Shown: positions 23,957 through 41,628 of the stretch, piece after piece
Layout: every line of letters begins with the position of its first letter
Numbering within the stretch: the first letter of the stretch is position 1
NCBI RefSeq assembly: GCF_026247885.1
Contig: NZ_CP110921.1
Coordinates: forward strand, 806,001-870,000
DNA: 64,000 nucleotides
Source of the DNA: Methylococcus mesophilus
GTDB taxonomy: Bacteria; Pseudomonadota; Gammaproteobacteria; Methylococcales; Methylococcaceae
Direction of reading: 5' to 3'
Made by a program: the position numbers and the translations under genes
The notes under the pieces: generated by a model
The model's input: only the letters and a program-made list of their open reading frames with translations
The model's database searches: none
Told to the model about the DNA's origin: nothing

Positions 23957-23972
23957 GCTTTGCCCAGGCCCC

Positions 23973-24566: not shown

Positions 24567-24706
24567 GGCAGGCTGGCTTCCAATCGGTAGGTGAGACTCG
24601 ATTGTATCCCGAGCCAATCTCCGATTCCCGCCCTCGGTTGGCGGCGCGGGCAGGAAAGCCGGATTTTGCTAAACTGCCGCAGCCACCTTGGATCGAGCTG
24701 ACTTCG

Positions 24707-24727
24707 GACTCGAAGAGCAGCGGAGCT
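24707..24727 (+). repeat. Exact copy of the 21-bp repeat in intergenic DNA
   Basis: Identical to the unit at 21035-21055. It lies between ubiX and the RND pump gene, 52 bp before the pump start, and is preceded by GAGCTGACTTCG, which looks like part of another degenerate unit. Confidence 0.85.
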
Positions 24728-24778
24728 GATTTCCAGGAGTTCTCGGCCACCCTGCGATAAACCACAGACTGCTCCCCC

Positions 24779-27700
24779 ATGATCGAATCCCTCATCCGCG
24801 CGGCCCTCCGGCAACGCCTCGTCGTCGTGATCCTAAGCTTGTGCCTGCTGGGCTTCGGGATCGCCGCAATGCAGGAACTGTCGGTGGATGCCTTCCCCGA
24901 CGTGACCAATGTCCAGGTCCAGGTCGCGGCGGAGGCGCCGGGGCGCTCGCCCGAGGAGGTCGAGCGCTTCGTGACAGTGCCGCTGGAAATCGCGATGACC
25001 GGCCTGCCGGGCCTGACCGAGATGCGTTCGGTCAACCGCAACGCCCTGTCCCAGATCAACCTGGTGTTCAGCGACGACACCGACGTCTACTTCGCCCGCC
25101 AATTGGTGCTGGAGCGGCTGATCGAAGCGGCTGCCCAGTTGCCGGAAGGCATCACGCCGGTGCTGGGGCCGGTGTCGACCGGCCTGGGCGAAGTCTACCA
25201 GTTCACCCTGGAGCGCCCGGACGACCGTGACCGTGTCCTGACCGAGCAGGAGCTGACCGAGCGCCGGACCATTCAGGACTGGGTAGTCCGCCCCTTGTTG
25301 CGCGGCGTCCCCGGCGTCGCGGAAATCAACTCGATCGGCGGCTTCGAGCGGCAGTACCAGGTGCTCGCCAACCCGGACCGCCTGAGGCATTACGGCATCT
25401 CGCTCAAGGACATCTACACGGCCCTGGCGCTCAACAACGCCAACAGCGGCGGCGGCAAGCTGCCCCGCTATGCCGAGCAGTACCTCATCCGCGGGCTGGG
25501 GCTGATCGAGAACATCGAGGACATCCGCAACATCGTGCTCAAGGAAAGCGGCGGCACACCCGTGTTCATCCGCGACGTGGCCGAGGTGAAGATCGGCCAC
25601 GCGGTGCGCTACGGGGCCGTCATCAAGAACGGGCAGACCGAGGCCGTGGGCGGGATCGTGATGATGATCCGCGGGGGCAACGCCAAGCGCATCGTCACGG
25701 AACTGAAGGAACGGATCCGCGAGATCAACGACAAGGGCATGCTGCCCGGCGGCCTAAAAATCGTGCCTTACTACGACCGCACCACGCTGGTGGACGCTGC
25801 CGTCCACACCGTGACCAAGGTGCTGATCGAAGGCATCGCGCTGGTCGTCGTCATCCTGCTGCTTTACCTGGGCGACGTCCGTTCCAGCCTGATCGTGGTG
25901 GCGACCCTGGTGGTCACGCCGCTGGTGACCTTCATGGTCATGAACCGCTATGGCATTTCGGCCAACCTGATGTCGCTGGGCGGGCTGGCGATTGCCATTG
26001 GCATCATGGTCGACGGCTCGGTGGTGGTCGTGGAAAACACCTTCCGCCACTTGGGCGAAATGAAGGATACCGGGGAACCCAAGCTGCAGGTGGTGCTGCG
26101 CGCCGCCGCCGAGGTCGGCACGCCGGTATTGTTCGGGGTCGGCATCATCTGCCTCGTGTTCCTGCCGCTGATGACCATGACCGGCCTGGAAGGGAAGCTG
26201 TTCGCCCCGCTGGCCTACACCATCGCCATCGCGCTGTTTATTTCGCTCATCGTATCGCTGACCCTCTCGCCGGTGCTGTGCGCCTACCTGCTCAAAGGCG
26301 GGGCCGAGCACGACACCCGTATCATCGCGGCAATGAAGCGCCCCTACCTCGCCCTGCTGCGGGTTGCGCTCGGCCGGCCGCGGACGGTGGTCGCCACGGC
26401 CCTGGCCCTGCTGGCCTCGAGCCTTGCGCTGTTCCCCTTGCTGGGCACCTCGTTCATTCCCGAGATGAAGGAGGGTTCGATCGTCACCGGCATCAACCGG
26501 GCCCCCAGCATGTCGCTGGACGAATCGATCGAAATGGAGACTGAGGCGATGCGGCTGGTCATGCAGGTTCCGGGCATCGAACGCGCCGTGTCTCAGCTCG
26601 GCCGCAGCCAGAACCCGACCGACACCCAGCCGGAGAACGAATCCACCCCCATCCTTACCCTCAAGCCGAAGGACGAGCTGCCGCGCGGCTGGGACCAGGA
26701 CGACGTGATGGACGCCCTGGCCGAGAAGCTCAAGGTGCTGCCGGGCGTTCAGGTCGTGATGGCCCAGCCGATCTCGGACCGGGTCGACGAGATGGTCACC
26801 GGCGTGCGGTCCGACATCGCCATCAAGATCTTCGGCGATGAACTCGAGACGTTGAAGCTCAAGGGCGATGAAATCATCCGGGTGCTCAACTCGATCCGGG
26901 GTTCGGCGGACATCCGGATGGAGCGGGTCAGCGGCCAGCAGTACCTCACCATCGACATCGACCGCTGGGCCATCGCCCGCCACGGAATCAACGTGCAGGA
27001 CATCAACGACATCATCGAAACCGCGATCGGAGGGCGCGACGCGACCCAGATCTATGAGGGCGAAAGGCGGTTTCAGACCGTGGTAAGGTTTCCCGACGGC
27101 TTCCGCGGCAGCCAGGAAGCCATCGGCAAGATCATGCTGGAATCTCACCATGGCGCGCTGGTGCCGCTGGAGCATCTGGCCCAAATCCGGCTGACCGACG
27201 GCCCGGCCCAGATCAGCCGGGAAATGGCCAAGCGCCGCCTGGTGATCGGTGCCAACGTGCGCGGCCGCGACCTGGGCGGTTTCGTGGCCGAACTGCAAAA
27301 GGCCGTCGGCGAAAAGGTCAAGCTGCCCGAAGGTTATTACCTCAAGTGGGGCGGCCAGTTCGAGAACCTGGAGCGCGCCATGAATCGCCTGCTCGTCATC
27401 ATTCCAATCACCATCGCGGCGATCTTTTTCCTGCTGTTCCTACTGTTCAATTCGCTGCGATTCGCCAGCCTCATCATTCTGGTCCTCCCCTTCGCCTCCA
27501 TGGGTGGGATTTTTTCCCTGTTCGCCTCTGGCGAATATCTGTCGGTGCCGGCTTCGGTCGGCTTCATCACGCTTTGGGGTATCGCGGTGCTGAATGGCGT
27601 CGTCCTGGTTTCCTACATACGGAGTCTGCGCGAAACCGGCATCGACTGCGAAGCCGCCATCGTCGAAGGCTGCAAGCAGCGTTTCCGGCCGGTCATGATG

Positions 27701-27877
27701 ACCGCCACCGTCGCCATGCTGGGCCTGGTGCCGTTCCTGTTCGCCACCGGCCCCGGTTCGGAAGTCCAGCGGCCGCTGGCCATCGTTGTGATTGGCGGCC
27801 TCATCACCTCGACACTGCTTACCCTGGTGGTTCTGCCAACCTTATACCGGTGGTTCGAAGGCCGCTTCTCGCCATAG
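24779..27877 (+). CDS. Heavy-metal RND efflux pump, inner-membrane subunit (CusA/CzcA family)
   Basis: A proton-driven inner-membrane transporter of 1,032 residues that normally works with a periplasmic adaptor and an outer-membrane channel. The HME-type N-terminus (AALRQRLVVVILSLCLLGFG, then DAFPDVTNVQVQV), two large periplasmic loops and the terminal GPGSEVQRPLAIVVIGG are clear. In the fourth helix GLAIAIGIMVDGSVVVVEN keeps the Asp and Glu of the proton relay but has Ala where CzcA-type divalent pumps have a first Asp, so the pattern is nearer to the CusA (Cu/Ag) type; this is inference. No adaptor or outer-membrane gene lies beside it, so it must use partners encoded elsewhere. Confidence 0.9.
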   Translation: MIESLIRAALRQRLVVVILSLCLLGFGIAAMQELSVDAFPDVTNVQVQVAAEAPGRSPEEVERFVTVPLEIAMTGLPGLTEMRSVNRNALSQINLVFSDDTDVYFARQLVLERLIEAAAQLPEGITPVLGPVSTGLGEVYQFTLERPDDRDRVLTEQELTERRTIQDWVVRPLLRGVPGVAEINSIGGFERQYQVLANPDRLRHYGISLKDIYTALALNNANSGGGKLPRYAEQYLIRGLGLIENIEDIRNIVLKESGGTPVFIRDVAEVKIGHAVRYGAVIKNGQTEAVGGIVMMIRGGNAKRIVTELKERIREINDKGMLPGGLKIVPYYDRTTLVDAAVHTVTKVLIEGIALVVVILLLYLGDVRSSLIVVATLVVTPLVTFMVMNRYGISANLMSLGGLAIAIGIMVDGSVVVVENTFRHLGEMKDTGEPKLQVVLRAAAEVGTPVLFGVGIICLVFLPLMTMTGLEGKLFAPLAYTIAIALFISLIVSLTLSPVLCAYLLKGGAEHDTRIIAAMKRPYLALLRVALGRPRTVVATALALLASSLALFPLLGTSFIPEMKEGSIVTGINRAPSMSLDESIEMETEAMRLVMQVPGIERAVSQLGRSQNPTDTQPENESTPILTLKPKDELPRGWDQDDVMDALAEKLKVLPGVQVVMAQPISDRVDEMVTGVRSDIAIKIFGDELETLKLKGDEIIRVLNSIRGSADIRMERVSGQQYLTIDIDRWAIARHGINVQDINDIIETAIGGRDATQIYEGERRFQTVVRFPDGFRGSQEAIGKIMLESHHGALVPLEHLAQIRLTDGPAQISREMAKRRLVIGANVRGRDLGGFVAELQKAVGEKVKLPEGYYLKWGGQFENLERAMNRLLVIIPITIAAIFFLLFLLFNSLRFASLIILVLPFASMGGIFSLFASGEYLSVPASVGFITLWGIAVLNGVVLVSYIRSLRETGIDCEAAIVEGCKQRFRPVMMTATVAMLGLVPFLFATGPGSEVQRPLAIVVIGGLITSTLLTLVVLPTLYRWFEGRFSP

Positions 27878-28141
27878 GTCGCAGCGACACCCTGCCGGAA
27901 GAACCTCGGGCTCCGCCGGCAATCCTTTTGCACTCCCATTATTCCCCGTCACTTCCTTCCCCATAATGGGGCTGCCGGCTCCATTTCAGTATGTCCCTTG
28001 AATTCCTCCGGATTCTTGTTACGTTGAACTTCGACGCAACCCCCGCTAGGTCACGTTGGCGTCTCAAAGTTCCATCGTAAAGCTAGCATCATCTCTCATG
28101 CCCAATCCTGGGCAGTTCCTTTTTTCAGGAGGACATACCCA

Positions 28142-31100
28142 ATGCGTACCGAAACCGCTCAACCGATCGCCGTTATCGGCATGGCCTGCCGCTATCCCGG
28201 CGCCGGAAACCTGTTGCAACTGTGGGAAAACATTCTTGCCCGGCGCCAGCAATTCCGCGAAATGCCCGATGTCCGGCTGCCGCTAGGCGACTATTACGAC
28301 CCGGACCCTGCGGTCTCCGATAAAACCTATGGACGCAAAGCCGCGGTCCTCGACGGCTTCGAGTTCGATCCCGGCAGCTACCGCATCCCGAAGTCGACGT
28401 TCGATACCACGGACATCGTCCATTGGCTTTCGCTGGCCACGTCCCTGGAGGCGCTGAGCCATGCCCGCGTCAGCCGCGATTCCCTCCCGAAGGATACCGC
28501 CGGCGCAATCATCGGCAATACCCTGACGGGAGAGGAAACCCGCGCCGGCACGATGCGGCTGCGCTGGCCCTTCGTCCGCAGGGTGCTACGGAAGACGGCG
28601 GAGGCGCGCGGCCTCCCCGAAGACCTGATGCAGGAATTCGAAACCGCGATGGAGGAGGTCTACAAGTCGGTGTTCCCGGCAGTGAACGAAGACACGCTGG
28701 CCGGCAGCCTGGCCAATACCATCGCCGGCCGCATTTGCAACTACCTCGACTGGCACGGCGGCGGCTACATCGTTGACGGGGCCTGCTCATCGTCACTGCT
28801 GGCGGTGGCCACCGCCGCCGATTACCTGCAACAGGGCAAGATGGACTTGGCGATCGCCGGCGGCGTCGACGTGAGCCTCGACACGCTCGAACTGATCGGC
28901 TTCGCCAAGGCAACCGCCCTCACCCGCGACGAAATGCGGGTCTACGACCGGCGCGGCAAGGGATTCATTCCCGGCGAGGGCTGCGGCATGGTGGTGCTGA
29001 AACGGCTGGAGGATGCCCGCCGGGACGGCGACACGGTATATGCGGTATTGCGCGGCTGGGGCGTGTCGTCCGACGGCCGCGGCGGCATCACCGCGCCCAG
29101 CGCGAAGGGCCAGACCCAGGCGCTGCTGCGCGCCTACAGGGCGGCGGGCTACGCCCCCCAGACGCTGGCATTCGTGGAGGGCCACGGCACCGGGACCGCC
29201 GTGGGCGACCGCACCGAACTCGAGGGCGTGGCCGGCGCACTGGCGGCTCACGGTCCGGTCGAGGACCACTCGGTCGGCATGACCTCCTTCAAATCCATCG
29301 TCGGCCATACCAAGGCGGCAGCCGGCATCGGGGGATTCATCAAGGCGGTGTTGGCGGTCAACCGGCGCGTGGTGCCGCCCACTGCCGGCTGTGCCGAGCC
29401 GCACGCCAGCTTCGCCGATTCGGCGCGGGGGCTTTACCCGGTACTGGACGGGCAGATAAAGGCGCCAGGCGAGCGCCTGCGCGCCGGTGTTTCGGCCATG
29501 GGGTTCGGCGGCATCAACTGCCACGTGACTCTGGAAAGCGGCGACCCGCCTGCGCCGGAACTCGCCCCCTCCCTGCCGGAGCGGATCCTGCTGGCCAGCC
29601 GCCAGCATACGGAAGTTTTTCCATTCTCGTCTTCCGACCCACACTCGCTGCTCCGAACCGTGCGCGTATTTCTGCAGCAGGTCAGAGGAATGGCGGCCGG
29701 AGAACTGGTGGACGCGGCGGCCCAGGCGGCGGCCCTGGCCGATGACCGGCCCTGGCGGGCGGCGGCGGTCGCCGGTTCGGTCGAAGAGCTCGAAGCCCGG
29801 CTCGAACTGCTGGCGCAGCGGCTGGAGCAAGAGCTCCCGGCGGCGGGCACCTTGTGGCAGGGAGATCAAGTCTGGATCGGCCACGCGGCCGCCCCGCAGC
29901 GGGTCGGCTTCCTGTTTCCGGGCCAAGGCTCCCAGCAGATCGGGATGGGCCGCAGCCTGGTGGAGCGTTTCGAATGGGCGCGGGACACCATCGAACGCTC
30001 GGACTCCGAATCGGCGGCATTGCGCCCCAACGGCCAGGACGGCCCCCTGAGCCGGTTGTACCTGCGCCCCAGCGAGCGCGATCCGGCGAAAACGCTCGAA
30101 CCGGCCTGGATGGCGGAGCTGACCGCCACCGAAAACGCCCAGCCTGCGATCTGCACCACCTCCCTTCTGTGGAAACAACGGCTCGAATCGCTCGGCATCC
30201 TTCCCGCCGTAGTCGGAGGACACAGCCTGGGCGAACTCACCGCGCTGTCCGCGGCCGGCGCTTATGACACTTCGACCCTCATCCGTCTGGCAACCCTGCG
30301 GGGGCTCGCCATGGCGGCGCCGGAAGGCGAGGCAGGCGCCATGGGTGTGCTGGCCTGCGACGCCTCGGCCGCGGAGGCGATCATCGCCCGCGCGGCGAGC
30401 GGCTATTGCGCGATCGCCAACGTCAACTCGCCATCGCAGACCGTGATTTCGGGCGAGCGTACGGCCGTGTCCCGCGCCGTCGAGCTGGCGAACGCCGATG
30501 GCATCCGCGCCAGCCTGTTGCCGGTATCCAATGCCTTCCATTCGAAACTGGTCGAAAGCGCAGGGGAGAACTTCCGGCGGGGCGCTGACCTCCCCGACCG
30601 CGCCGGCGACCTGACCGTGCGGGTATTCTCCAGCATCGACGGCAGCGAAATCGCGTCCGGCGCGGACCTGCGCGCGCACCTGTCCCGCCAAGTCGTATCG
30701 CCGGTGAACTTCACCCGCCTGCTGGAAACGATGTCGGACCATTGCGACTGGCTGGTGGAAGTCGGTCCGGGCCGGGTGCTTTCAGGACTGGCGCAAAGCC
30801 ACGCCGCTGTCCGCGTGCGTCCCTGCCTGCCGGTCGAAGGGCGGCCGGGACGCGACGGCGATTTCAATGCGGTGGTGGCCGAAGCCCATGTTCGCGGACT
30901 CGCCCTGCGCTGGGAACGCCTGTACGAAAACCGGCTGGTGCGGCCCTTCGTACCGGCGTCGGAACGCAAGTTCTACGTTGCGCCCTGCGAACGCGAACTC
31001 GCCGCCGTCCCCGCCGCCGCAGGGTCCCGCCCCCTCCTGACGGCCGGTCCGCTCCGCCGGATCGAGGGGCAAGCAAATTCCGATCTCGCCCAGTTGTCGG

Positions 31101-34100
31101 AAACGCTGACGGCGGCCTTCCGCGACGCCGTTCACGCCGAGCACGCCGCGGTGCTGCTGTACGAACAGGCCGAGGATGCCTTGCGGGTCGTCCTGCCCTT
31201 CGACGCCTTCGCCAATCGGCTGAGCGCCGCCGACGGCATCTTCGCCGACGTGCTCCGCTCCGGGGCGCCGGAGGCCATCGAAGTGCTGGGGGAAGATCCC
31301 CGTTTCCGGGCCGAACTCGAAGCCCTCGGCGTCCCGCTCGAATGGACCGCTCTTTACGTGCCTTTCCCCAGCGGAGCCGGCCACCCTCTCGGCCTGGTTC
31401 GCGTCGCCCGACGGCCCGGCGAACCCTTTACCCCAATGGACGCCGAAATCCTGGCCGAGCTGGCGGCGATTGCCGCACCCGGCCTGATCCAGGCCTACAT
31501 GGCCGAACGCGCCCGCGAACTGCAGGGAATCGAGACGCTGCTGCACGGCGCGGTGGCGAGAGGAACCGCGGACCGGCCCCCGGAGGCAATCATCGGCAAC
31601 CTGGTGGAATCGGCCAAGGACAGCCTCGGAGCCGAATACGGCGCGATCCTGCTGCACGACCGCGACACCGGCACGCTCCATCCCGCCATCCACGACAAGG
31701 CCGAAGTCCTGCGCCTGAGCGCCGAGAGCGGCATCCCCGGCGAAGTATTCGCGACCCGGCGCTCCCTGCATTTGGCCAATGCCCATGCCGACCCGCGTTT
31801 CGAGCCGGCGCTCGACCGTCTCGCCGGCACCCGCACCCGCACCGTAGACTGTGTTCCCATCCTGACGATCCAGCATTCTCCGCTCGGCGTGCTGCTACTG
31901 GTGAACCGCCGGTTTCCCGGCAACCGGGATTACCTGGCGGAACTGGGTCTGAGAATCGGCGCCCTGCTGGCCAGCCGGCCACTGCTGGACCGCATGCGGG
32001 CCGTCTCGGAAGGCCTGAAGGGCGAGATCGTCGCCGAGGTGCCGCGGCCCCCGGCGGAATGGTCACCTGAACCAGTGGCCGCCGCTCCCGAAACCGCTGA
32101 CGTGACGGCTGCCTCGGCGCGCAGGGTCGTCCTGGAGCTGCTGGCCGAACGCACCGGCTTCGCGATCGACACATTGAAAGACGACGCCCGCCTGATTGAC
32201 GACCTCAACCTGGATTCGATCAAGATCGGCAGCTTGCTCGGCGATGCCGCGATCCGCCTGGGCGTGCAAGGAAAGATCGATCCGATGCGAATGAACGCCG
32301 AGACCGTCGGCAATGTGATCGAGTCCTTCGACGCCGTCGCCGCACCCGCGGCGCCTGCAAAGGCCTCCGCAGTGCCGGCGCCGGCATCGGCGATGGACCT
32401 GCTGCTCGGCCTGGTCGCCGAGCGCACCGGCTTCAGCCGCGACTGTCTGGCGCCCGACCAGCGCCTGCTGGACGACCTCAACATCGATTCGATCAAAGCC
32501 GGCGCGCTGTTAGGCGACCTCATCCTCAGCACCGGCACCCAGGACCGGATCGAAGCCGCGCCGCTGGCCAACGCGACCCTGGGGGAAATTGCCGCCGCGC
32601 TCCAGGCCGCGATCGGCGGAGATTCCGCACGCTGCGAACCGGCGGCGGCTGCCGCAACGGAACCCGCAAGACGCATGCACTGGGTGAGGGCATTCAACCA
32701 GGCTAGAGTCGCCGCTCCGCTCCTTTCGCCTTCGGCCGCGACGGAACCTCCAGCCGGCGAATGTCTCATCCTGCTCCCCCAAGCCGGCGTTCCATTCGGA
32801 GAGAATCTGGGACGGCGCCTTGCCGCCCGCGTGCTGAATGCGAGGGCTCTGGACGAGGCCCATCTCGCGGACGGCACCAAACGGCTGGTGGTCGTGCTAT
32901 CGGATACCCATGCGCCGCGCACCGGCTCGGTCGCCGGCGCCGGTATCCACGAGCTCGCGGTGATTCACGGTCTGGCCCGACGGGCTCCCGCCGCCTGGCG
33001 AAACCTGAGGAGCATCATCTTCCTCCAGCGCAGCGGCGGCAGCGAGCTGCCGGGTGGCGGGGCGCCCAGCGCCTGGTCCTTCGCCGGCAGCCTTTCGCTG
33101 GAACGGCCGGAACTCGAGGTCGGCGTGATCGATTTCGATCCCTCCCTGGCCGCCGATTTCGTCGCCGACCGGACCCTGGCCGAACTGTCCGGACAGCCCG
33201 GCTACAAGGCGGTGGAATACGACGCCGAAGGCATGCGCTGGACCCGCTGCATCCGCCCGGTCGAGCCCGAGGACTGCGCGGCGCGCTCGATCGAATGGTC
33301 GGCGAAGGACGTGGTCCTGGTCACCGGCGGCGGCAAGGGCATCACCGCGGAGTGCGCGCTGGCGTTCGCCCTTGAGACCGGCGTCAGGCTCGCCCTGGTC
33401 GGCCGCTCGCCGGCACCGCAGCCCGGCGAAACCGGAGAACTGGCGGCGACCCTGCAGCGGTTCGCGGAAGCGGGCATCGACTGCCGGTACTACGCGGCCG
33501 ATGTCGCCGATTACCCGGCAATGGAACGGGCCGTCGCGACGATCCGGGGCGAAATGGGGCCGGTGACCGGCGTGATCCATGGCGCCGGCACCAATACCCC
33601 GCGGCCCGTGGCCGAGGTCTCCGCCGAACAGGCCCGGCTCGAAATCGCGCCCAAGCTGCAAGGCGCCGAGAACCTGCTGGCCCTGTTCGAGAACCATCCG
33701 CCCAAGCTGTTCGCGGCACTGACTTCGATCATCGGTGTGACCGGCATGAAGAACAACGCCTGGTACGCCTATTCGAACGAAGCGGTGGCGCGGCTGCTCG
33801 ACGGATTCGCACAAGCCCATCCGGACACGGCGGTAGTCTGCCATGCCTTCAGCGTATGGGACGAGGTCGGCATGGGCGTGAAGCTCGGCAGCGTCCGCCA
33901 CCTGGGCCAATTGGGCATCGACGCCATTCCGATCTCCGAGGGCGTGCGCCAGTTCCTGCGCTGGATGCGCACCGCGCCGCCGGCACGGGAAGTGATCGTG
34001 GCCGCCAGTGCCGACGGCCTTGCCACCTGGGTTCGCCCCCCGATGGCCGAGGCGACCACCCCGCCCGGCCGATTCCACGGCGAGGTGCAACGCTTCGAGG

Positions 34101-36886
34101 CAGGGATAGAACTCATCACCCAGGTCAGCCTCGACACCCGGCACGATCTCTATCTGGCCGACCACGACTACCGCGGTTCCCTGCTCCTGCCTACCGTCAT
34201 GGGGCTGGAAGCCATGGCCCAGGCGGTACTGCGGGTCGCCGGGAGTGCGGAGACGGCGGTCGTGCGGATCGAGGACATCCGGCTGGAACGGCCGATCGTC
34301 GTGAGCCGGGAACGGCCGCAGCGCATCGAGATACGGGCGCTGGCGCTGGAACGCACGGAGGTCTCTGACCCGGTCGTGGTGGAAGCGTCGATCCATGCCG
34401 AACAGACCGGCATGGAACCTGCGCATTTCGCTGCCCGCTTCGTGCTGGGGCGGCGTCGAGACGCCGCAGCGGGAGAAACCGCTCTGCCGCCGCGCCAGTT
34501 GCTGGGCATCGTGCCGAAGATCGATCTCTACGGCGGCGTGCTGTTCCAGGGGCCGCTGTTCCAACGTATCAGCGGCGTGGAATCACTGGACGACAGCCAT
34601 GTCGTTTTCGTGACCGAGGCAAAGGGTGAGACGATTCGTAACCCCGAAGGATTCTCGGATACGGTGCGGGCTCCGCTGGTGCTGGGCGATCCGTTCTACC
34701 GCGACACCCTGCTGCAGGCCGCCCAGATATCGCTAACACCGGAAGTCTGCCTGCCGGTCCGTATCGGACGCATCGACCTCTATAGCGGCGATGCGCCCGG
34801 CGCCAGCTATCGGGCCGAAGCCAAGGTCGTCGGACGCAACGGCAGCCGGATACTGGGAGAAGTCACGGTGTTCGACGGCCAGAACCGGGTCATCGAGCGC
34901 ATCACTGGCTACGAAGTGCAGAGGCTGGATCGGCGCGCCGATCTGCCGACCCCGGCCCAACTGCTGGCGCGGGCAAACTTGTCGGACGATCCGGCGCTGC
35001 AGAGCGAAGCGGACCAAAGGGCCCGTGAATTCGGTCTTTCGGCCCCATCCGTGATCGTCCGCAACATTCCCAATCTCCATGCCAGCAAGCGCGACAGAAG
35101 GCGCGTCATATGCCGTCCGGTCTTTCACGCTGCGGTTCGCGAGGCCGGGCTCCGCTTCGCCGTAGATACCTCGCACCTCGAGGTACGCTGGCTGGAAACC
35201 GGCAAACCGGTGCTGTACCGCTCGCACAGCCGGTCGGGAACGGATGCGGCGGGCGGACTCATGGAGCCGGAAGCGGCTTTCGCACCGCTGGAAGTATCAC
35301 TGAGCCATGACGACGAGGTTCTGCTTTGCGTTGCCGGCATGGGGCTCCAAGGCTGCGATCTGGTGGGTCCAATCCAGCGCAGCCGGGATCAATGGCGTGC
35401 GATGCTGAACGCCGGGCTGTTTGCACTCGTCGACCGCCTGGAACGCGAAGGGGACGCACTGGATGAGGCCGGAACGCGGGTTTGGTCTGCGCTGGAGGCG
35501 GCTATGAAGGCTCTCGATACCCGCGACATCACGCTGGATATCGAGGCCCGGCATGCCGATACCGTCCTGTTCCGCGCCACCTGGGAAGAGGTCCGGGTGC
35601 GGGTCGTGAGCTTCCCGGCAATGGTCGCCGGACGGAAGCGTTGCATGGTAGCCATGGTCGTAAACGGCGGGTCGAATCCGAACGGAAAGGATACGCTCGA
35701 TCGGGAACAGCGTGACGAGAGCTCACCGGAAACGGCGGAGGACGGACCGGTCCGGGAGGTTGCGGCAGCGACTCAACCCGAGACCGTGGCTGGACGCGAT
35801 GGATCTTGGACCCGTTGGCTGGCGGCGGGCGGAAATCCCTCCGATTTTCTCCGGGTCGAAACCCATATCGCCGACCCGGATTGCGACCACCATATCGCGT
35901 TCCGTTTTCCTCTGGCATTCAAAGATGGCGCCAACGCCGACGGTACGCTTTATTTCTCCCGCTTCTTCGAGTGGATGGGACGGCTCAGGGAAATGGCGCT
36001 AAGGCCTGTTTTGGCCCGGCTCACCGACGAATTCACATCGGGCGAGCATGCCTGGGTCACCAACCGTTCCTGGGCATCCATCGAAAGGCCGGTACATGCG
36101 GGGGAGATCATGGAGGTGTCATGCCGCTTCCTTGGCCGCAATGGCCCCGGGGATTCGACGGTCGCCGTCGGATTCGAATGGCACCGGGTCCTGCCTGATG
36201 GGACGCAGGAGCGCGTGGCAACCAGCCAGATCCAGATGACCTGGGCCAGGGTCGTCTCCCACGGGGTGGTCACGCCCGAACCGTATCCGCCGTATCTCGA
36301 CGGCTTCTTCCGGGAGCTCGGATCCACGGCCGACGGGTTCGAACAAAATGACCAGCCCAGCCATGTCCCCGCATCGGACCGCATCGGCGCCGCCTTGTGG
36401 CGCGAAAAACCGGGGCCCGTCGCCGGCCTGGTGCTTTCCGAGCAGAATGTCGCCACCTCGCCGAATGACGCGAATCTGGTGGGCAATATCTACTATTCGA
36501 AGTACTATGAGTTGCAAGGGGTACTCCGGGATGGCTATTTTTACGGCATCGTTCCCGATGCCTATCGGATCGGCGAAGCGCAAGGAGGCTTTCGGTGCAT
36601 CTTCACCGAAGTCCGGCACCTCCGGGACGCAATGCCGTTCGATACCATCAAAGCCCGTATGTATTTGGCAGGGATCTACCAAAAAGGCGTCGTACTGGCA
36701 TTCGACTTTTTCCGGCTCATGCCCGGCGGCCGATCGGAAAAACTTGCCACCGGCACGCATGTAGCGGCCTGGAGGGCGACGGCGGAAGCCGGCAGCATCG
36801 CTGACCTGCCAGCAGCGCTGCGTGACCATTTGCTCGGCAAAGTCAGGAAAGACATACTGGAGATGAAGAGCAGATCGGCTGCTTGA
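28142..36886 (+). CDS. Giant iterative type I polyketide synthase: KS-AT-GAF-GAF-ACP-ACP-KR-DH-PPTase-hotdog-hotdog
   Basis: A 2,914-residue synthase. AGGAGG eight bases before ATG supports the start. KS (1-470): Cys215 in DGACSSS, His348 in EGHGTGT, His389 in GHTKAAAG. AT (590-900): Ser695 in GHSLGE, His800 in AFHS (malonyl type). Two GAF domains follow (about 980-1125 and 1130-1290; the second reads GIPGEVFATRRSLHL, HADPRF, TRTRTVDCVPI). Two ACPs carry Ser1359 and Ser1450 in DSIK. KR: LVTGGGKGI, Tyr1875/Asn1879. DH: His2008 in HDYRGSLLLP and DTLLQ. A PPTase-like part (about 2,380-2,480: SLSHDDEV, VWSALEAAMKAL) precedes two CalE7-like hot-dogs with Asn2598 and Asn2778. The core order matches enediyne/polyene synthases, which self-phosphopantetheinylate and make a conjugated polyene. 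GAF domains and fused thioesterases are odd. Confidence 0.9.
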   Translation: MRTETAQPIAVIGMACRYPGAGNLLQLWENILARRQQFREMPDVRLPLGDYYDPDPAVSDKTYGRKAAVLDGFEFDPGSYRIPKSTFDTTDIVHWLSLATSLEALSHARVSRDSLPKDTAGAIIGNTLTGEETRAGTMRLRWPFVRRVLRKTAEARGLPEDLMQEFETAMEEVYKSVFPAVNEDTLAGSLANTIAGRICNYLDWHGGGYIVDGACSSSLLAVATAADYLQQGKMDLAIAGGVDVSLDTLELIGFAKATALTRDEMRVYDRRGKGFIPGEGCGMVVLKRLEDARRDGDTVYAVLRGWGVSSDGRGGITAPSAKGQTQALLRAYRAAGYAPQTLAFVEGHGTGTAVGDRTELEGVAGALAAHGPVEDHSVGMTSFKSIVGHTKAAAGIGGFIKAVLAVNRRVVPPTAGCAEPHASFADSARGLYPVLDGQIKAPGERLRAGVSAMGFGGINCHVTLESGDPPAPELAPSLPERILLASRQHTEVFPFSSSDPHSLLRTVRVFLQQVRGMAAGELVDAAAQAAALADDRPWRAAAVAGSVEELEARLELLAQRLEQELPAAGTLWQGDQVWIGHAAAPQRVGFLFPGQGSQQIGMGRSLVERFEWARDTIERSDSESAALRPNGQDGPLSRLYLRPSERDPAKTLEPAWMAELTATENAQPAICTTSLLWKQRLESLGILPAVVGGHSLGELTALSAAGAYDTSTLIRLATLRGLAMAAPEGEAGAMGVLACDASAAEAIIARAASGYCAIANVNSPSQTVISGERTAVSRAVELANADGIRASLLPVSNAFHSKLVESAGENFRRGADLPDRAGDLTVRVFSSIDGSEIASGADLRAHLSRQVVSPVNFTRLLETMSDHCDWLVEVGPGRVLSGLAQSHAAVRVRPCLPVEGRPGRDGDFNAVVAEAHVRGLALRWERLYENRLVRPFVPASERKFYVAPCERELAAVPAAAGSRPLLTAGPLRRIEGQANSDLAQLSETLTAAFRDAVHAEHAAVLLYEQAEDALRVVLPFDAFANRLSAADGIFADVLRSGAPEAIEVLGEDPRFRAELEALGVPLEWTALYVPFPSGAGHPLGLVRVARRPGEPFTPMDAEILAELAAIAAPGLIQAYMAERARELQGIETLLHGAVARGTADRPPEAIIGNLVESAKDSLGAEYGAILLHDRDTGTLHPAIHDKAEVLRLSAESGIPGEVFATRRSLHLANAHADPRFEPALDRLAGTRTRTVDCVPILTIQHSPLGVLLLVNRRFPGNRDYLAELGLRIGALLASRPLLDRMRAVSEGLKGEIVAEVPRPPAEWSPEPVAAAPETADVTAASARRVVLELLAERTGFAIDTLKDDARLIDDLNLDSIKIGSLLGDAAIRLGVQGKIDPMRMNAETVGNVIESFDAVAAPAAPAKASAVPAPASAMDLLLGLVAERTGFSRDCLAPDQRLLDDLNIDSIKAGALLGDLILSTGTQDRIEAAPLANATLGEIAAALQAAIGGDSARCEPAAAAATEPARRMHWVRAFNQARVAAPLLSPSAATEPPAGECLILLPQAGVPFGENLGRRLAARVLNARALDEAHLADGTKRLVVVLSDTHAPRTGSVAGAGIHELAVIHGLARRAPAAWRNLRSIIFLQRSGGSELPGGGAPSAWSFAGSLSLERPELEVGVIDFDPSLAADFVADRTLAELSGQPGYKAVEYDAEGMRWTRCIRPVEPEDCAARSIEWSAKDVVLVTGGGKGITAECALAFALETGVRLALVGRSPAPQPGETGELAATLQRFAEAGIDCRYYAADVADYPAMERAVATIRGEMGPVTGVIHGAGTNTPRPVAEVSAEQARLEIAPKLQGAENLLALFENHPPKLFAALTSIIGVTGMKNNAWYAYSNEAVARLLDGFAQAHPDTAVVCHAFSVWDEVGMGVKLGSVRHLGQLGIDAIPISEGVRQFLRWMRTAPPAREVIVAASADGLATWVRPPMAEATTPPGRFHGEVQRFEAGIELITQVSLDTRHDLYLADHDYRGSLLLPTVMGLEAMAQAVLRVAGSAETAVVRIEDIRLERPIVVSRERPQRIEIRALALERTEVSDPVVVEASIHAEQTGMEPAHFAARFVLGRRRDAAAGETALPPRQLLGIVPKIDLYGGVLFQGPLFQRISGVESLDDSHVVFVTEAKGETIRNPEGFSDTVRAPLVLGDPFYRDTLLQAAQISLTPEVCLPVRIGRIDLYSGDAPGASYRAEAKVVGRNGSRILGEVTVFDGQNRVIERITGYEVQRLDRRADLPTPAQLLARANLSDDPALQSEADQRAREFGLSAPSVIVRNIPNLHASKRDRRRVICRPVFHAAVREAGLRFAVDTSHLEVRWLETGKPVLYRSHSRSGTDAAGGLMEPEAAFAPLEVSLSHDDEVLLCVAGMGLQGCDLVGPIQRSRDQWRAMLNAGLFALVDRLEREGDALDEAGTRVWSALEAAMKALDTRDITLDIEARHADTVLFRATWEEVRVRVVSFPAMVAGRKRCMVAMVVNGGSNPNGKDTLDREQRDESSPETAEDGPVREVAAATQPETVAGRDGSWTRWLAAGGNPSDFLRVETHIADPDCDHHIAFRFPLAFKDGANADGTLYFSRFFEWMGRLREMALRPVLARLTDEFTSGEHAWVTNRSWASIERPVHAGEIMEVSCRFLGRNGPGDSTVAVGFEWHRVLPDGTQERVATSQIQMTWARVVSHGVVTPEPYPPYLDGFFRELGSTADGFEQNDQPSHVPASDRIGAALWREKPGPVAGLVLSEQNVATSPNDANLVGNIYYSKYYELQGVLRDGYFYGIVPDAYRIGEAQGGFRCIFTEVRHLRDAMPFDTIKARMYLAGIYQKGVVLAFDFFRLMPGGRSEKLATGTHVAAWRATAEAGSIADLPAALRDHLLGKVRKDILEMKSRSAA

Positions 36887-36912
36887 CGGAAACGTCGCTT
36901 GAAATACCTCGC

Positions 36913-36939
36913 CCGCCCTTTCCTTCCGGGAGAGGGCGG
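36913..36939. terminator. Hairpin after the polyketide synthase gene
   Basis: CCGCCCT at 36913-36919 pairs with AGGGCGG at 36933-36939 around a loop containing CCTTCCGGGAG, 26 bp after the synthase stop. No T run follows. It likely separates the synthase from the GGDEF/EAL gene, but may also be a short relative of the palindromic repeats. Confidence 0.4.
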
Positions 36940-37145
36940 AAACGAGGGCTATGGCGAATGGGTACAATGGTTGGCATCCGGAGCGTCCATTCCCCATGGC
37001 TACGATACGCAAAGCCGCCTTAAAATCCAGGAAGTTCGTCCCGACACCGAACACGGACCGAACGGTGGCGGACTCCTCCGGCGAAGGCGCTAAAATATCT
37101 CCGCCACGTCACGACAGACGTGGCCACGAGAACAAGAACCAATCA

Positions 37146-39134
37146 ATGCCCGATCCCCGCAGTTTCCGTACACCGGAAGCCAGGGGACAAAGCGAGAACA
37201 GGAATAAGCGGGTGACACTCATCATCATCTTGGGGAAGTACCTGTGGATTGCCGGCATTCTGGCTTCCGTAGTGATGTCCGAAGTCGTGACCGCAGCGAT
37301 GGGTTTGCTCCTCAAAGGGGAAGTCACCTACGACTATCTGGCCACGGGGATGGTGGCCGCCCTCCTGGTTTCCGGGATTGTCGTTGCCGGCACCATGAAA
37401 CTTGAGGATCTGGAACGGCGCCGCCAGGAGGAAGTGGCCAAGAACCGCGCGCTCCGCGCCAGCGAACGGCGTTACCGCACCTTGATCGAGGTCGCCAACG
37501 ACGCCATCCTCGTCACCGATTCCGAGACCGGAACCCTGGTCGACTGCAACCGGCAGGCCGAAACTTTGCTGGGAATGTCCCGCAATGAAATCATCGGCCA
37601 GCACATGAGCAATCTCCAGGAAACCCGCAAAGATGCCGATAGTGCGGAAACCGATTTTCTCGGCTATATGTTGCGCGGCAAAACCGGAACCATCGAGCTA
37701 TCGCTGATCAGGGCCGACGGCACCACCATTCCGGTGGAAGTCAGCAGCAGCACCTTCGAAATGGATGGGCGGCGCTATGTCCACGGTGCGTTCCGCGACA
37801 TTACCCAACGAAGAGAGGCAGAGGACCGGATCAAGCATCTCGCCCATCACGACCCGCTCACCAATCTGCCCAATCGCATTTTCCTGCACGGACGCCTCGA
37901 ACAAGCGGTCGAATTCGCCCGGCGGGAGCAGAAGCAGGTCGCGGTGATGTTCATCGACCTGGACAATTTCAAGAGAATCAACGACACCCTGGGCCACCGG
38001 ATCGGCGATGCGCTGCTGGGACAAGTTGCAGGGCGGCTGACCGAAAATGTGCACGGAAGCCAGGTGGTCGGGCGGCTGGGGGGCGACGAGTTCATCGTCG
38101 TGATCACCGGCAATAATGTCTCGACGACCGCAACGTCCATGGCGGAGCGAATCCTGGAAAGCGTCTGCCGCCCTTATACAGTCGAGGACTATCAGCTGCA
38201 CTCCGGCGCAAGCATAGGCATTGCCATTTATCCCGCCGACGGAAACAGCGCGGAGACCCTGATGAAGCACGCTGACGCCGCGATGTACCATGCCAAAAAC
38301 CGGGGACGCAACACCTTCGAATTCTTCAGCCAGGCCATAAATCGCGGCGTCAGGGAACGGCTCGAAATCGAAAACGGCCTGCGCGACGCGCTGAAGCACG
38401 GGGGCTTCAGACTCCATTACCAGCCCCAGATCGATCTGGCCACCGGCTCCGTCTGCAGCGTCGAAGCGCTATTACGGTGGCGCCATCCGGTACTCGGCGC
38501 CATCACTCCCGACCGGTTCATACCCATCGCCGAAGAGACCAAACTCATCCTGCCCTTGGGGCTGTGGGTCATCGACCGGGCATGCCATCAGATGCGAAGC
38601 TGGCGGAACGAAGGCATCGCCGGCGTACGCATGGCCATCAACGTTTCGGTGAAACAACTGCAGGATGAGTCATTTTTCGAAGCCCTGGGCTCGATCGTCG
38701 AACGCCATGGCCTATCCGGCTCTGATATCGAACTCGAAATCACCGAATCCGCCATCATGGAAAATCTCAGCCGTGTTCAGGCAATATTGAAATCGCTACA
38801 GGATTATGGAATCACGCTCTCCATCGACGATTTCGGCACCGGCTATTCCTCATTGGGCCGACTCAAACTCCTGCCCATCCAAAGCCTGAAAATCGATCGT
38901 TCCTTTGTTCAGGACATTGAGACCGATCACGGAAATGCCAAGATTTGCGACGGTATCATCGCACTCGGCCACAGCCTTGGACTGACAATCATTGCCGAAG
39001 GTGTGGAAACGGAGGCGCAAAAAAACTTGCTGCAAAACTCTGGCTGCGATGCGATTCAAGGCTTCCTCATTGCTAAGCCATTGCCTGCGGAGGACGTTGC
39101 GAAACTTATCGTCCAGGTAAACGGAATAAACTGA
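37146..39134 (+). CDS. Membrane-anchored PAS-GGDEF-EAL c-di-GMP signalling protein
   Basis: About 662 residues from ATG at 37146; an open frame extends upstream but codes no recognisable protein. Two hydrophobic helices (LIIILGKYLWIAGILASVV and ATGMVAALLVSGIVVAG) anchor it with little periplasmic loop. PAS (YRTLIEVANDAILVTDSETG, about 100-220) precedes GGDEF (LGGDEFIVVI) and EAL (EALLRWRHPVLGAI, ELEITE, IDDFGTGYSSLGRL, LKIDRSFV, AEGVET). Both catalytic motifs look intact; no RxxD inhibitory site precedes GGDEF. Bifunctional or PAS-switched turnover of c-di-GMP is expected. The ribosome site is weak. It lies 259 bp after the polyketide synthase, with a hairpin between, so co-regulation is possible but not shown. 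Confidence 0.88.
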   Translation: MPDPRSFRTPEARGQSENRNKRVTLIIILGKYLWIAGILASVVMSEVVTAAMGLLLKGEVTYDYLATGMVAALLVSGIVVAGTMKLEDLERRRQEEVAKNRALRASERRYRTLIEVANDAILVTDSETGTLVDCNRQAETLLGMSRNEIIGQHMSNLQETRKDADSAETDFLGYMLRGKTGTIELSLIRADGTTIPVEVSSSTFEMDGRRYVHGAFRDITQRREAEDRIKHLAHHDPLTNLPNRIFLHGRLEQAVEFARREQKQVAVMFIDLDNFKRINDTLGHRIGDALLGQVAGRLTENVHGSQVVGRLGGDEFIVVITGNNVSTTATSMAERILESVCRPYTVEDYQLHSGASIGIAIYPADGNSAETLMKHADAAMYHAKNRGRNTFEFFSQAINRGVRERLEIENGLRDALKHGGFRLHYQPQIDLATGSVCSVEALLRWRHPVLGAITPDRFIPIAEETKLILPLGLWVIDRACHQMRSWRNEGIAGVRMAINVSVKQLQDESFFEALGSIVERHGLSGSDIELEITESAIMENLSRVQAILKSLQDYGITLSIDDFGTGYSSLGRLKLLPIQSLKIDRSFVQDIETDHGNAKICDGIIALGHSLGLTIIAEGVETEAQKNLLQNSGCDAIQGFLIAKPLPAEDVAKLIVQVNGIN

Positions 39135-39429
39135 ATTGGCGGCCCGACAAATAGTCGCGGCGCCGTTATGAGATTGGCATTCGCAATTCTGTGCCGTCTT
39201 CGCACCAAGGTTTTCCGAATGGATTCCGCAACGAAAAGCGGCGATCGAAAAACTTGGGAGACTATTAGAACTCGCGCCAAGAAGATCTCGGATCTGAAAA
39301 ATCCGATGATGCCAGTGCAGGGGCAAACGTGGGGACATCCGCCCATCATCTTTCACATTCAACCGCACGGCGCATTCTCATGCATCGTTCCATACGAACG
39401 ACGCAGCGAACCGAAAGCCATTGCGTTTA
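39135..39429. other. Non-coding stretch left of the tRNA fragment
   Basis: About 295 bp between the GGDEF/EAL gene and the tRNA-Glu fragment. Short open frames here are not supported: the longest runs straight through the tRNA fragment. No promoter or repeat was recognised. It is presumably the chromosomal flank of the integrated element. Confidence 0.4.
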
Positions 39430-39473
39430 TGGCGTCCCCAGGGGGATTCGAACCCCCGTCGCCGCCGTGAAAG
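39430..39473 (-). other. 3' half of a tRNA-Glu(TTC) gene: integration (att) site
   Basis: Read on the minus strand the 44 bases run from the anticodon loop CTTTCAC (39473-39467) through the anticodon-stem 3' side CGGCGG, the T arm GGGGG-TTCGAAT-CCCCC, the acceptor strand TGGGGAC, discriminator G and encoded CCA. This matches bacterial tRNA-Glu (E. coli has CCCTTTCACGGCGG and GGGGACGCCA). The 5' half is absent: upstream of 39473 the sequence no longer matches a tRNA. Such half-tRNAs are left when a tyrosine integrase inserts an element at the anticodon loop, and an integrase begins 229 bp away. Confidence 0.85.
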
Positions 39474-39592
39474 AGTTGCAACTAGACTTCTCTTAGCTCC
39501 AGTAAACTCTGGCAGCCTCCGAATTAGTTTTTCATCTCGTTGACAACGTTATCTTTTTATTCTGATAATCTCCGACAAACTCCGAGAATATC

Positions 39593-39641
39593 TGGCGGAC
39601 ATATGGCGGACACGGACACTTTTAGGAACACTTGGCGGACA
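39593..39641 (+). repeat. Three direct repeats TGGCGGACA before the integrase
   Basis: Exact copies at 39593-39601, 39604-39612 and 39633-39641, with two CTCCGA half-repeats just upstream (about 39570-39585). They lie between the tRNA fragment and the integrase start, where arm-type integrase or excisionase binding sites usually sit. The rest of the 39474-39701 gap is AT-richer and has no gene. Confidence 0.6.
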
Positions 39642-39701
39642 TTTCGCTGACATCTGGCAGGCACCGGAGCGACCTGACAAACCCAATACAAGGTCATCAC
39701 A

Positions 39702-40985
39702 ATGGCACGCGCAGTACGATCAACAGGGCTAGAGAGCCGGACGGCACGGCTCAAGCTCGAAGCCGGCAAACGGCACGCATTAAACATCGGGCCGGGCGCG
39801 AGTCTGGTTTACCGTCGGGGGAAATCTGGCGCAGGTGCATGGTTTTGCCGCGTCGTGGATTCATCGGATAAAGAGTCGCTGACCAAGATCGGCCCCGCCG
39901 ACGACTACGCCGACTCAGACGATGTGCTGGTGCTGAACTTCAGCCAGGCGCAAGCCCGATGCCGGGAGATTTCCGCCGAAGCCCGGTTGCCGCCGCATAA
40001 GCGGGTTAAACCGCTGACCGTCGCCGAGGCCGCCGAACACTATATGGGATGGTTCCGCGTGCACCGGAAATCCTTCAAGGACACGGAGCGGACGATCAGT
40101 GCCCACATCCTACCTAAACTGGGAGCAAAACAAGTGCACGAGCTGACGGTCCGAGAGCTGCGGAAATGGCACGAAGGACTATGCACCGTGCCCCCACGGA
40201 AACGGCTCAAGGCGGGTGAATCCGGCGTGCAGCACCTGTCAGCGTGGGAGGCCACACCGGACAATATGCGGGCGCGGAAGTCGACCGCAAACCGCGTCTT
40301 GACCGTGCTGAAAGCGATCTTGAACAAAGCCTTTCAAGACGGACTCGCGGTAGACGACTCAGAGTGGCGGCGGGTCAAACCGTTCGGGCGCGTTGACGAA
40401 CCCGTGATTCGGTTCCTATCCGTGGACGAATGTACCCGACTGGTGAACGCCTGTCCGGCTGACTTCCGGCAATTGGTCCGGGCTAGCTTACTGACTGGGG
40501 CGCGCTATGGCGAGCTGGCGCGGATGATGGTCGGCGACTTCCACTACGGCACCGGCGCGGTGCGGATTTCGGGCGAAGGCAAAACCGGCCGGGCACGGTG
40601 GGTACCGCTGAATGAGGAAGGACAGGCGTTTTTCTTAGGTATGGCGGCTGGCAAGCTGGACCAAGACTTATTGTTTATGCGGGAGGACAGACAGCCTTGG
40701 GGTAGTTCACACCAGTGCCGCCGGCTGGCGGATGCCTGCAAGATCGCCCGGATCGAGCCGGCGATTTCTTTCCATGACCTACGGCATTCTTACGCATCGT
40801 TGCTGGCCCAAGCCGGGGCGGACCTGTTGACCATATCCAAGCTGCTCGGGCACGCGGATACCCGGATCACGTCTCGGCACTATGCCCACCTGTGTGATCG
40901 CACCTTGGCGGCGGCCGTGCAGTCCAAATTGCCGAGTTTTGGCGTGCCAGAGTCGTCAAACGTGGTGACGCTACGAGGTCGGTAA
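39702..40985 (+). CDS. Tyrosine-type site-specific integrase
   Basis: A 427-residue phage/island integrase. The N-terminal part may bind arm sites; residues about 105-220 form the SAM-like core-binding domain (LTVAEAAEHYMGWF); the catalytic domain follows, with the first Arg in LLTGARYGELARM, the HDLRHSYAS box, LLGHADTRITSRHYAHL with the second His and the nucleophile Tyr. All catalytic residues are visible. The start has AAGG about nine bases upstream. It is the first gene inside the element after the tRNA-Glu fragment, so it most likely cuts within that tRNA's anticodon region. Confidence 0.95.
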   Translation: MARAVRSTGLESRTARLKLEAGKRHALNIGPGASLVYRRGKSGAGAWFCRVVDSSDKESLTKIGPADDYADSDDVLVLNFSQAQARCREISAEARLPPHKRVKPLTVAEAAEHYMGWFRVHRKSFKDTERTISAHILPKLGAKQVHELTVRELRKWHEGLCTVPPRKRLKAGESGVQHLSAWEATPDNMRARKSTANRVLTVLKAILNKAFQDGLAVDDSEWRRVKPFGRVDEPVIRFLSVDECTRLVNACPADFRQLVRASLLTGARYGELARMMVGDFHYGTGAVRISGEGKTGRARWVPLNEEGQAFFLGMAAGKLDQDLLFMREDRQPWGSSHQCRRLADACKIARIEPAISFHDLRHSYASLLAQAGADLLTISKLLGHADTRITSRHYAHLCDRTLAAAVQSKLPSFGVPESSNVVTLRGR

Positions 40986-41016
40986 GCGCGTTCCTCTATA
41001 GCAAAAAAGGCATATA

Positions 41017-41343
41017 ATGGTGGTACATCGATGGGTCATTGAACTGATCCCGGAAGCAGAAGCGGAGCTGAAAGCGATACCGGCGGACATCCGGGCGCGG
41101 TTTATCCATATCAGCGGGATGATCGCCGAGTCCGGTCCGCACCACGTAGGCATGCCGCATGTGCGGCATCTGGAAGGCAGGCCGTGGGAAATGCGGATGA
41201 AGGGGCGCGATGGCATCGCCCGCGCCGTCTACGTAGCGCAGCACGGATGCCGGCTTACCGTAATCCATGTGTTCGCCAAGAAGACCCAGAAAACACCCCG
41301 TCGTGCCATTGAAATTGCCATGAACCGAATGAGGACGCTATGA
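41017..41343 (+). CDS. RelE/HigB-like toxin (phage Gp49-like family)
   Basis: A 108-residue protein of the RelE/ParE fold, Gp49-like (DUF891) branch. Recognisable parts: ELIPEAEAELKAIPADIRARF at the start, PHVRHLEGRPWEMRMKGRDG, then IARAVYVAQHGCRLTVIHVFAKKTQKTP, the usual strand pair with terminal basic helix. Members are mRNA-cleaving toxins held by a helix-turn-helix antitoxin. The gene ends in ATGA shared with the antitoxin start, giving the toxin-first order typical of HigBA. In a mobile element such pairs favour maintenance. Confidence 0.85.
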   Translation: MVVHRWVIELIPEAEAELKAIPADIRARFIHISGMIAESGPHHVGMPHVRHLEGRPWEMRMKGRDGIARAVYVAQHGCRLTVIHVFAKKTQKTPRRAIEIAMNRMRTL

Positions 41344-41627: not shown

Positions 41628-41628
41628 G

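Follow-up and report, generated by a model that had tools for sequence, protein, structure and literature searches.

Results

The synthase gene and its orthologues

The window analysed here is a stretch of 64,000 nucleotides from Methylococcus mesophilus (contig NZ_CP110921.1, positions 806,001 to 870,000), part of a genome of 4.34 Mb in one contig that we label G000; other genomes carry similar labels of our own. Our subject is one plus-strand gene, at positions 28142-36886 of the window, which probably encodes a self-contained iterative polyene synthase. Its open reading frame (ORF) starts with ATG, has AGGAGG a short way 5' of that start, and specifies 2914 residues uninterrupted by stops. 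The domain order of this polyketide synthase (PKS) is ketosynthase (KS), acyltransferase (AT), GAF, GAF, acyl carrier protein (ACP), ACP, ketoreductase (KR), dehydratase (DH), phosphopantetheinyl transferase (PPTase) and two hot-dog domains, which we call TE1 and TE2 (Table 1).

Full-length ORFs for this protein are found in 6 of 6 Methylococcus genomes, with identities of 80-93% in four of the others and 74% in the fifth; M. capsulatus Texas (87%) and a Methylococcus metagenome-assembled genome (MAG; 72%, best segment) are the relatives that carry names. Beyond the genus, full-length orthologues are present in two more Methylococcaceae genera, G004 (59%) and G001 (66% and 61%, on two contigs). 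The PKS is matched in 9 of 38 genomes of the family (E <= 1e-150; one of the nine is a shorter relative), in 12 of 301 genomes of the order (E <= 1e-180) and in 4 of 369 in a sample of the class (E <= 1e-150). All folded domains are under purifying selection: five pairwise comparisons, with one cell not computable, give nonsynonymous to synonymous rate ratios (dN/dS) of 0.05-0.29 in every one of them, and 0.19-0.43 in the linker before TE1. Given the full-length Methylococcus orthologues and the low dN/dS, the gene is not a chance frame. Matched by description and neighbour alone, it corresponds to MCA1238 of M. capsulatus Bath, which passages of Ward 2004 (PMC517821) present as a single PKS gene of that strain, atypical and with domains of unknown function, adjoining the diguanylate cyclase/phosphodiesterase gene MCA1237.

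Table 1. Positions in the window of the synthase gene, its domains and its neighbours.
Feature	Position	Strand	Evidence
Single gene, 2914-aa predicted iterative type I polyene synthase	28142..36886	+	ORF, orthologues
KS; Cys215, His348, His389 kept	28160..29551	+	Pfam PF00109/PF02801 (residues 7-416), tree
AT; Ser695 in GHSLG, AFHS motif	29909..30769	+	PF00698 6e-30 (residues 590-876)
GAF domain 1, residues 980-1112	31079..31477	+	PF13185 2.2e-15
GAF domain 2, residues 1147-1257	31580..31912	+	PF01590 8.2e-16
ACP 1; DSI with Ser1359	32126..32320	+	PF00550 0.0079, best stretch 1329-1393; ACP repeats in relatives
ACP 2; DSI with Ser1450; limits approximate	32393..32596	+	match to ACP 1 and relatives
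KR; Ser1862, Tyr1875, Asn1879 in SgcE columns	33314..33820	+	PF08659 8.7e-26 (residues 1725-1893)
DH; His2008, Asp2188 kept, aligned with SgcE	34109..34942	+	PF14765/PF21089 (residues 1990-2267)
Sfp-type PPTase domain	35039..35701	+	invariant motifs, SgcE alignment, weak AcpS/Sfp matches
Hot-dog domain 1 (TE1); Asn2598, Arg2616	35894..36346	+	profile, tree, residues
Hot-dog domain 2 (TE2), SgcE10/CalE7 counterpart; Asn2778, Arg2796	36389..36883	+	phmmer, profile, tree, residues
CusA/CzcA-type RND pump, upstream of the PKS	24779..27877	+	
PAS-GGDEF-EAL gene, 64 bp downstream of the PKS	36951..39134	+	
Candidate structured 5' leader: anti-Shine-Dalgarno pairing, terminator-like hairpin 28099-28114 just 5' of AGGAGG	27990..28141	+	

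Domains from KS to PPTase

KS, AT, KR and DH all give strong Pfam scores, and the AFHS motif of the AT is presumably of the malonyl type. The KR-DH-PPTase region aligns with SgcE residue by residue over its length. For the ACPs the Pfam signal is weak (PP-binding 0.0079, under the cut-off); the pair is backed by its DSI serines and by its likeness to each other and to relatives. In the PPTase, the motifs SxSH, GCD and W-x3-E-x3-K, which we take to be the Sfp-type pattern, are shared without change by all 14 aligned family members, and a family profile from which G025 was left out has AcpS (0.0019) and Sfp (0.012) as its best matches. By Pfam, the gene has a single KS and lacks a separate enoyl reductase (ER) domain; PF13561, an 'enoyl reductase' family, matches the KR stretch only.

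Most of this had been anticipated by the original prediction, which was made from the DNA letters and their translations. The ORF and the catalytic residues that it saw kept in KS, AT, both ACPs, KR and DH are all present, the integrated PPTase is borne out by its motifs and the SgcE alignment even though profile matches are weak, and the methanotroph that it supposed as host is indeed Methylococcus. Every domain in its proposed order was found; what it had missed is the GAF tandem that separates the AT from the ACPs.

The C-terminal hot-dog domains

Neither hot-dog reaches a Pfam cut-off (the best for TE2 is 4HBT_2 at 0.045; TE1 has nothing). When residues 2270-2914 were compared with solved structures by phmmer at E up to 1, six sequences were returned, all of them thioesterases (TE): CalE7 (1.4e-7), two of DynE7, an 'ACP-polyene thioesterase' and two named just 'Thioesterase'. 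TE1 is weak as a single sequence (best 0.0064); as family profiles, TE1 matches DynE7 at 3.3e-11 and TE2 matches CalE7 at 5.7e-23, and hhalign gives 97.7% for TE1 with E10, 99.5% for TE2 with E10 and 98.9% for TE1 with TE2. In a TE tree of 30 rows, from which the near-identical Texas and G013 domains were dropped (they were restored for residue counts), TE2 and the free-standing E10 proteins are set against TE1 with support of 100/100. On the strength of these profile matches and this tree, the two domains are an old tandem, with TE2 as the E10 counterpart and TE1 as a separate old branch. The E10-homologous domain is fused in the window protein; no search was made for a further free E10 in the genome.

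Hence, the claim that two E10-type hot-dogs are fused at the C-terminus is upheld, and both Asn residues and their Arg partners lie where they had been placed. The two domains had been treated alike, however, whereas TE2 alone groups with E10.

The GAF pair

Among the compared loci, the GAF pair occurs only in Methylococcus, in G004 and in one of the two PKSs of G001 (hereafter the eight GAF-type loci); in the shorter relatives, the stretch from AT to ACP shows no GAF match. A profile of the pair built from eight rows finds as its best match the adenylate cyclase structure 1ykd (1.7e-20), which we take to be CyaB2, and also matches cyclic-nucleotide phosphodiesterase GAFs; most of the structure matches fall over GAF 2. 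A tblastn search of plasmid records with the pair gave one partial match, to an ABC-type protein of Nostoc.

Kinship of the synthase

The KS is 53-54% identical to those of three Streptomyces enediyne PKSs (PKSEs), 50% to that of the enediyne-type synthase of the methanotroph G044, and 32-41% to PfaA-type KSs. In a KS tree of 29 rows, including all eight GAF-type loci and six shorter forms, the PKSE-like rows, the window's among them, are separated from PfaA with support of 98/100, and the eight GAF-type rows stand together at 100/100. The four enediyne rows form a clade of their own (100/99) with the window KS outside it, while the shorter relative G025 groups with them (95/87). A concatenated tree of 17 rows, which holds two of the six Methylococcus and not the GAF-type protein of G001, recovers the enediyne clade at 100/100 and leaves the order of the fused forms unresolved. 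The placement of G025 raised the idea that the fused form is ancestral and the free E10 arose by fission, but in the concatenated tree the fused forms and G500 fall on one side with only 69/60; the direction, fusion or fission, therefore stays open.

When plasmid records were searched by tblastn, Gloeothece verrucosa came first (41% identity over 87% of the query), followed by Streptomyces type I PKSs including that of the C-1027 producer. Those Streptomyces plasmid loci that were opened adjoin enediyne-type genes. The M. mesophilus genome itself holds a second iterative PKS, around 4079754-4089140 of its contig, with a PfaA-like KS preceded in frame by about 700 residues; it is followed by a 613-aa ORF with a weak DH-PPTase match and then by ORFs akin to the ABC/MacB/LolA-type genes of G206.

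Enediyne accessory genes

As queries we used three genes of the Streptomyces globisporus cluster, annotated as DUF1702, CRTAC1 and RnfD-type, which we take to be SgcE3, SgcE4 and SgcE5 (E <= 1e-5), and the UnbV Pfam family (E <= 0.001). All four queries match both controls, the S. globisporus plasmid (W01) and G044, and none has a match in any of the eight GAF-type genomes, G000 included. Thus, the window's genome falls short of the E3/E4/E5/E/E10 set by which the enediyne cassette is defined in passages of PMC5181780.

UnbV was also searched for in six other relatives on the methanotroph side (G025, G206, G215, G265, G044 and G500), all of which match, and in the Gloeothece plasmid, which does not. 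It adjoins the PKS in G215, G025, G500 and G044. The PKS neighbour in G265 is 53% identical to that in G215, with the UnbV match itself on another contig, and in G206 the UnbV matches lie on contigs other than that of the PKS. In G025, a very long frame (1818 aa; L030, contig C233) with three UnbV matches lies downstream of the TE-fused PKS.

Neighbouring genes and the leader

The RND pump is kept upstream in 6 of 6 Methylococcus genomes and not in G004, where an RND relative of 24% identity lies on the other side; in G001 the contig ends. The PAS-GGDEF-EAL gene, whose product has both GGDEF and EAL motifs, follows the PKS in seven of the eight GAF-type loci (all six Methylococcus and G001, not G004).

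The segment preceding the PKS is a candidate riboregulator that may hide the ribosome-binding site. The stem of its hairpin, TGCCC/GGGCA, does not vary among the six Methylococcus; a T-run, short in the MAG, comes after the hairpin. The window leader folds with z -3.54, its ribosome-binding site being paired with the upstream CCCUUGAA stretch; in the five other Methylococcus leaders, whose segment starts were our choice, z ranges from -1.86 to -3.77 and the site is paired upstream, not always with the same stretch. Among 16 leaders of the window, the Shine-Dalgarno zone of this one is the most paired (0.91), and two others also have z below -3. Covariation support is poor, with three pairs showing two-sided change and an unfavourable covariation term. 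No Rfam family reached its gathering score in 23000-42000 or matched the leader with E up to 10, and a promoter scan of 27500-39400 found none.

Elsewhere in the window, 15461-19624 encodes a single 1387-aa protein that joins CheB (weak), CheR, PAS, GGDEF and EAL, and 48917-57655 encodes a 2912-aa GH94/glycoamylase-type protein, presumably cyclic beta-glucan synthase-like. Downstream of the PKS-EAL pair lie an integrase gene (39702-40985) and transposase-type genes (45087-46115 and 61683-62717); beyond the EAL gene, the flank has almost no genes common to the compared Methylococcus loci.

Discussion

In our view, the gene probably codes for an iterative synthase that makes a polyene by itself, and from its architecture we infer the product, the number of cycles, the release chemistry and the ligand and effect of the GAF pair. 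The integrated Sfp-type domain would load phosphopantetheine on the two ACPs, the AT would supply malonyl units and the KS would extend the chain repeatedly. With KR and DH and no ER, each beta-keto group would become a double bond, giving a conjugated polyene that the covalent E10-type hot-dog pair would hydrolyse off. A polyene hydrocarbon or polyenone may then arise by decarboxylation/dehydration, as with RerA and RerB of Rhodococcus erythropolis PR4 (PMC11563203).

Several points weigh against this proposal. No product is known for the window synthase. The best NCBIfam match is to TIGR02813 PfaA, even though its 587.8 bits stand far below the cut-off of 1010.1. The PPTase is matched weakly (ACPS 0.03-0.038, under the cut-off), and the second acid of its DxE metal motif is Val in the window protein and Val or Ala across the GAF-type proteins, so that its activity is likely but not certain. 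Kinship to RerA and RerB rests on a published domain description and not on a sequence comparison. Finally, we recognised no tailoring enzyme next to the PKS in the window, which leaves the end use of the polyene unexplained.

The protein could also be a true enediyne synthase at the core of an enediyne cluster. The 53-54% identity of its KS to SgcE-type KSs and the E10-type thioesterase agree with this, as do the UnbV/FG-GAP neighbours of the shorter relatives G215 and G025, and also of G500 (with the G215-like neighbour in G265), which recall enediyne cassettes; moreover, an E3/E4/E5/E/E10 cassette is reported in passages of PMC8788690 for the methanotroph Methyloprofundus INp10. Yet the window KS lies outside the enediyne clade, and homologues of E3, E4, E5 and UnbV were not found in eight genomes with working controls, which led us to reject an enediyne producer; as judged from sequence, we see the idea as nearly refuted and give it scarcely any credence. 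Since E3/E4/E5 homologues were not found while the positive controls matched, a free conjugated polyene, and not an enediyne, is the likely product. Of the enediyne/polyene link in the original prediction, the relation to iterative synthases stands; because of the KS placement and the missing E3/E4/E5 matches, 'polyene' fits and 'enediyne' does not. What had been named as evidence that would tell against the link, a KS away from the PKSEs together with hot-dogs of an unrelated family, is not what the trees show, with 98/100 against PfaA for the KS and 100/100 for TE2 with E10. A polyunsaturated fatty acid (PUFA) or secondary-lipid synthase of the PfaA/HglE type would account for the tandem ACPs, which PUFA synthases also have, and for TIGR02813 as best match. 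That score is below its cut-off, however, and the KS tree, built without HglE sequences, sets the window apart from seven PfaA-type KSs; these two results led us to reject a PfaA-type lipid synthase. The gene has neither a separate ER nor a second KS, another PKS of the same genome does group with PfaA, and we regard a lipid synthase as very improbable.

Within a polyene synthase, the roles of the added domains can be read in more than one way. The GAF pair most probably serves regulation or dimerisation and binds a small ligand. That it binds none, and is just a passive spacer or a brace for dimers, is a lesser, though serious, possibility: the cyclic-nucleotide GAF signature, NK-F-DE, looks incomplete by eye in the alignment of the pair, most so in G004, and the rest of the chain is kept in relatives without GAFs. 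On the other hand, both GAFs are under purifying selection (dN/dS 0.06-0.23), the nearest solved GAFs are those of a nucleotide cyclase and of phosphodiesterases, which bind ligands, and a PAS-GGDEF-EAL gene follows the PKS in seven of eight loci. The hot-dog pair may divide its work, which would be compatible with a polyene synthase: either TE2 Asn and TE1 Arg form a composite site, or TE1 does something else, for example isomerisation or dehydration. In hot-dog thioesterases, catalytic roles of this Asn and Arg come from work on CalE7, on which the proposal leans. Of 15 tandem proteins, all have the TE1 Arg and 14 have the TE2 Asn, which is replaced by Asp in the remaining one; the TE1 Asn is conserved in 11 and the TE2 Arg in 12. 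The second copy of G206 ends at its contig end, without hot-dogs to count. These counts, which cover few independent lineages and were put to no formal test, suggest a single active site to which both domains contribute. A domain of unknown function, Y, at the matching place in RerB (PMC11563203) would also fit a divided role. All eight GAF-type proteins, the window's included, nevertheless keep both Asn/Arg pairs intact, and TE1 of the shorter G001 protein was placed by position, not by BLAST. We hold such a division of work to be quite possible, if somewhat short of an even chance.

If these parts act jointly, a second messenger (a cyclic nucleotide, or one related to cyclic di-GMP) bound by the GAFs would gate the synthase, its level being set by the adjoining PAS-GGDEF-EAL protein, the leader would gate translation and the hot-dog pair would release the chain through one composite site. 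We think this full scheme unlikely, although, if it were true, the PKS itself would be the signal receptor. With a sensor-type GAF pair built into an iterative PKS, the allosteric control of a megasynthase could be tested directly.

Irrespective of this scheme, the whole chain of the atypical PKS noted in 2004 in a model methanotroph, MCA1238, can now be read. It appears to be the natural single-chain form of a machine that was fused artificially in the Rhodococcus work, and therefore a ready-made one-gene system for polyene chemistry. The three arrangements of release enzymes among the relatives (free single, free double and fused double) allow the evolution of the enediyne E10 thioesterase to be tested. 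Methylococcus is grown industrially, and the product of this synthase is thus worth knowing.

Comparison with known systems

With the enediyne PKSEs (SgcE and relatives), the window protein has in common the KS-AT-ACP-KR-DH-PPTase order, a closely related KS and, in TE2, a homologue of E10. To that order it adds two GAFs, a second ACP and two fused hot-dogs, and it differs further in its KS placement and in the E3/E4/E5 homologues not being found. In that family, CalE8 makes conjugated polyenes and CalE7 provides hydrolytic release, according to passages of PMC3107222. The PfaA-type PUFA synthases are likewise iterative type I PKSs with repeated ACPs; their KS clade is different, and the window protein scores under the PfaA cut-off.

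The shorter TE-fused synthases of Methylococcales (G206, G215, G265, G025 and G001) have the same chain with two C-terminal hot-dogs. They lack the GAFs, and their neighbours are others (UnbV/FG-GAP, Rieske oxygenase, ABC transporter). The second PKS copy of G206, ended by its contig, shows no hot-dogs. In G500, a PKS without hot-dogs (a 2256-aa frame) is followed by a separate 347-aa ORF for a double hot-dog (L061, 8758-9798, minus strand), beyond which lie three ORFs of about 695 aa with UnbV matches. G044 has a free-standing E10 of 141 aa.

Enediyne-type PKSs are reported in cyanobacteria in passages of PMC2442094 and PMC4247773. The PKS pair of Gloeothece verrucosa PCC 7822 (NC_014533) divides the chain over two genes, KS-AT and then ACP-ACP-KR-DH-PPTase-TE1-TE2, without GAFs. 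Three halogenase genes, of the tryptophan-7-halogenase type, and a carotenoid oxygenase gene lie beside it; a carotenoid oxygenase is also found near the PKSE of Streptomyces NBC_00523, and these neighbouring enzymes possibly act on polyenes. When plasmids were searched for RerB-like proteins with two double-hot-dog queries, most of the double hot-dog was covered by Gloeothece only.

The closest described system is RerA/RerB, in which RerA is KS-AT-ACP-ACP-KR-DH and RerB is PPTase-Y-TE (Prasongpholchai 2024; PMC11563203). Together, they make polyenes of 6-9 double bonds, up to C22, in E. coli, and their in vitro product is bright yellow. The yellow was more intense with an artificial RerA-RerB fusion, and inactivation of the TE left cells orange, possibly from enzyme-bound species. 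The original prediction had announced a new natural-product machine; given these polyenes of 2024, and the mention of the gene in 2004 in passages of PMC517821, it is better described as a variant. The arrangement without GAFs already has its two-protein counterpart in RerA/RerB, whereas we found neither a GAF pair in such a synthase nor a natural full fusion in our searches of the open-licence PMC literature. By the published description, the two systems agree in their domains, with an enediyne-like KS and tandem ACPs in each; what takes two proteins in Rhodococcus is one natural chain in Methylococcus, which carries in addition the GAFs that are not described for RerA/RerB.

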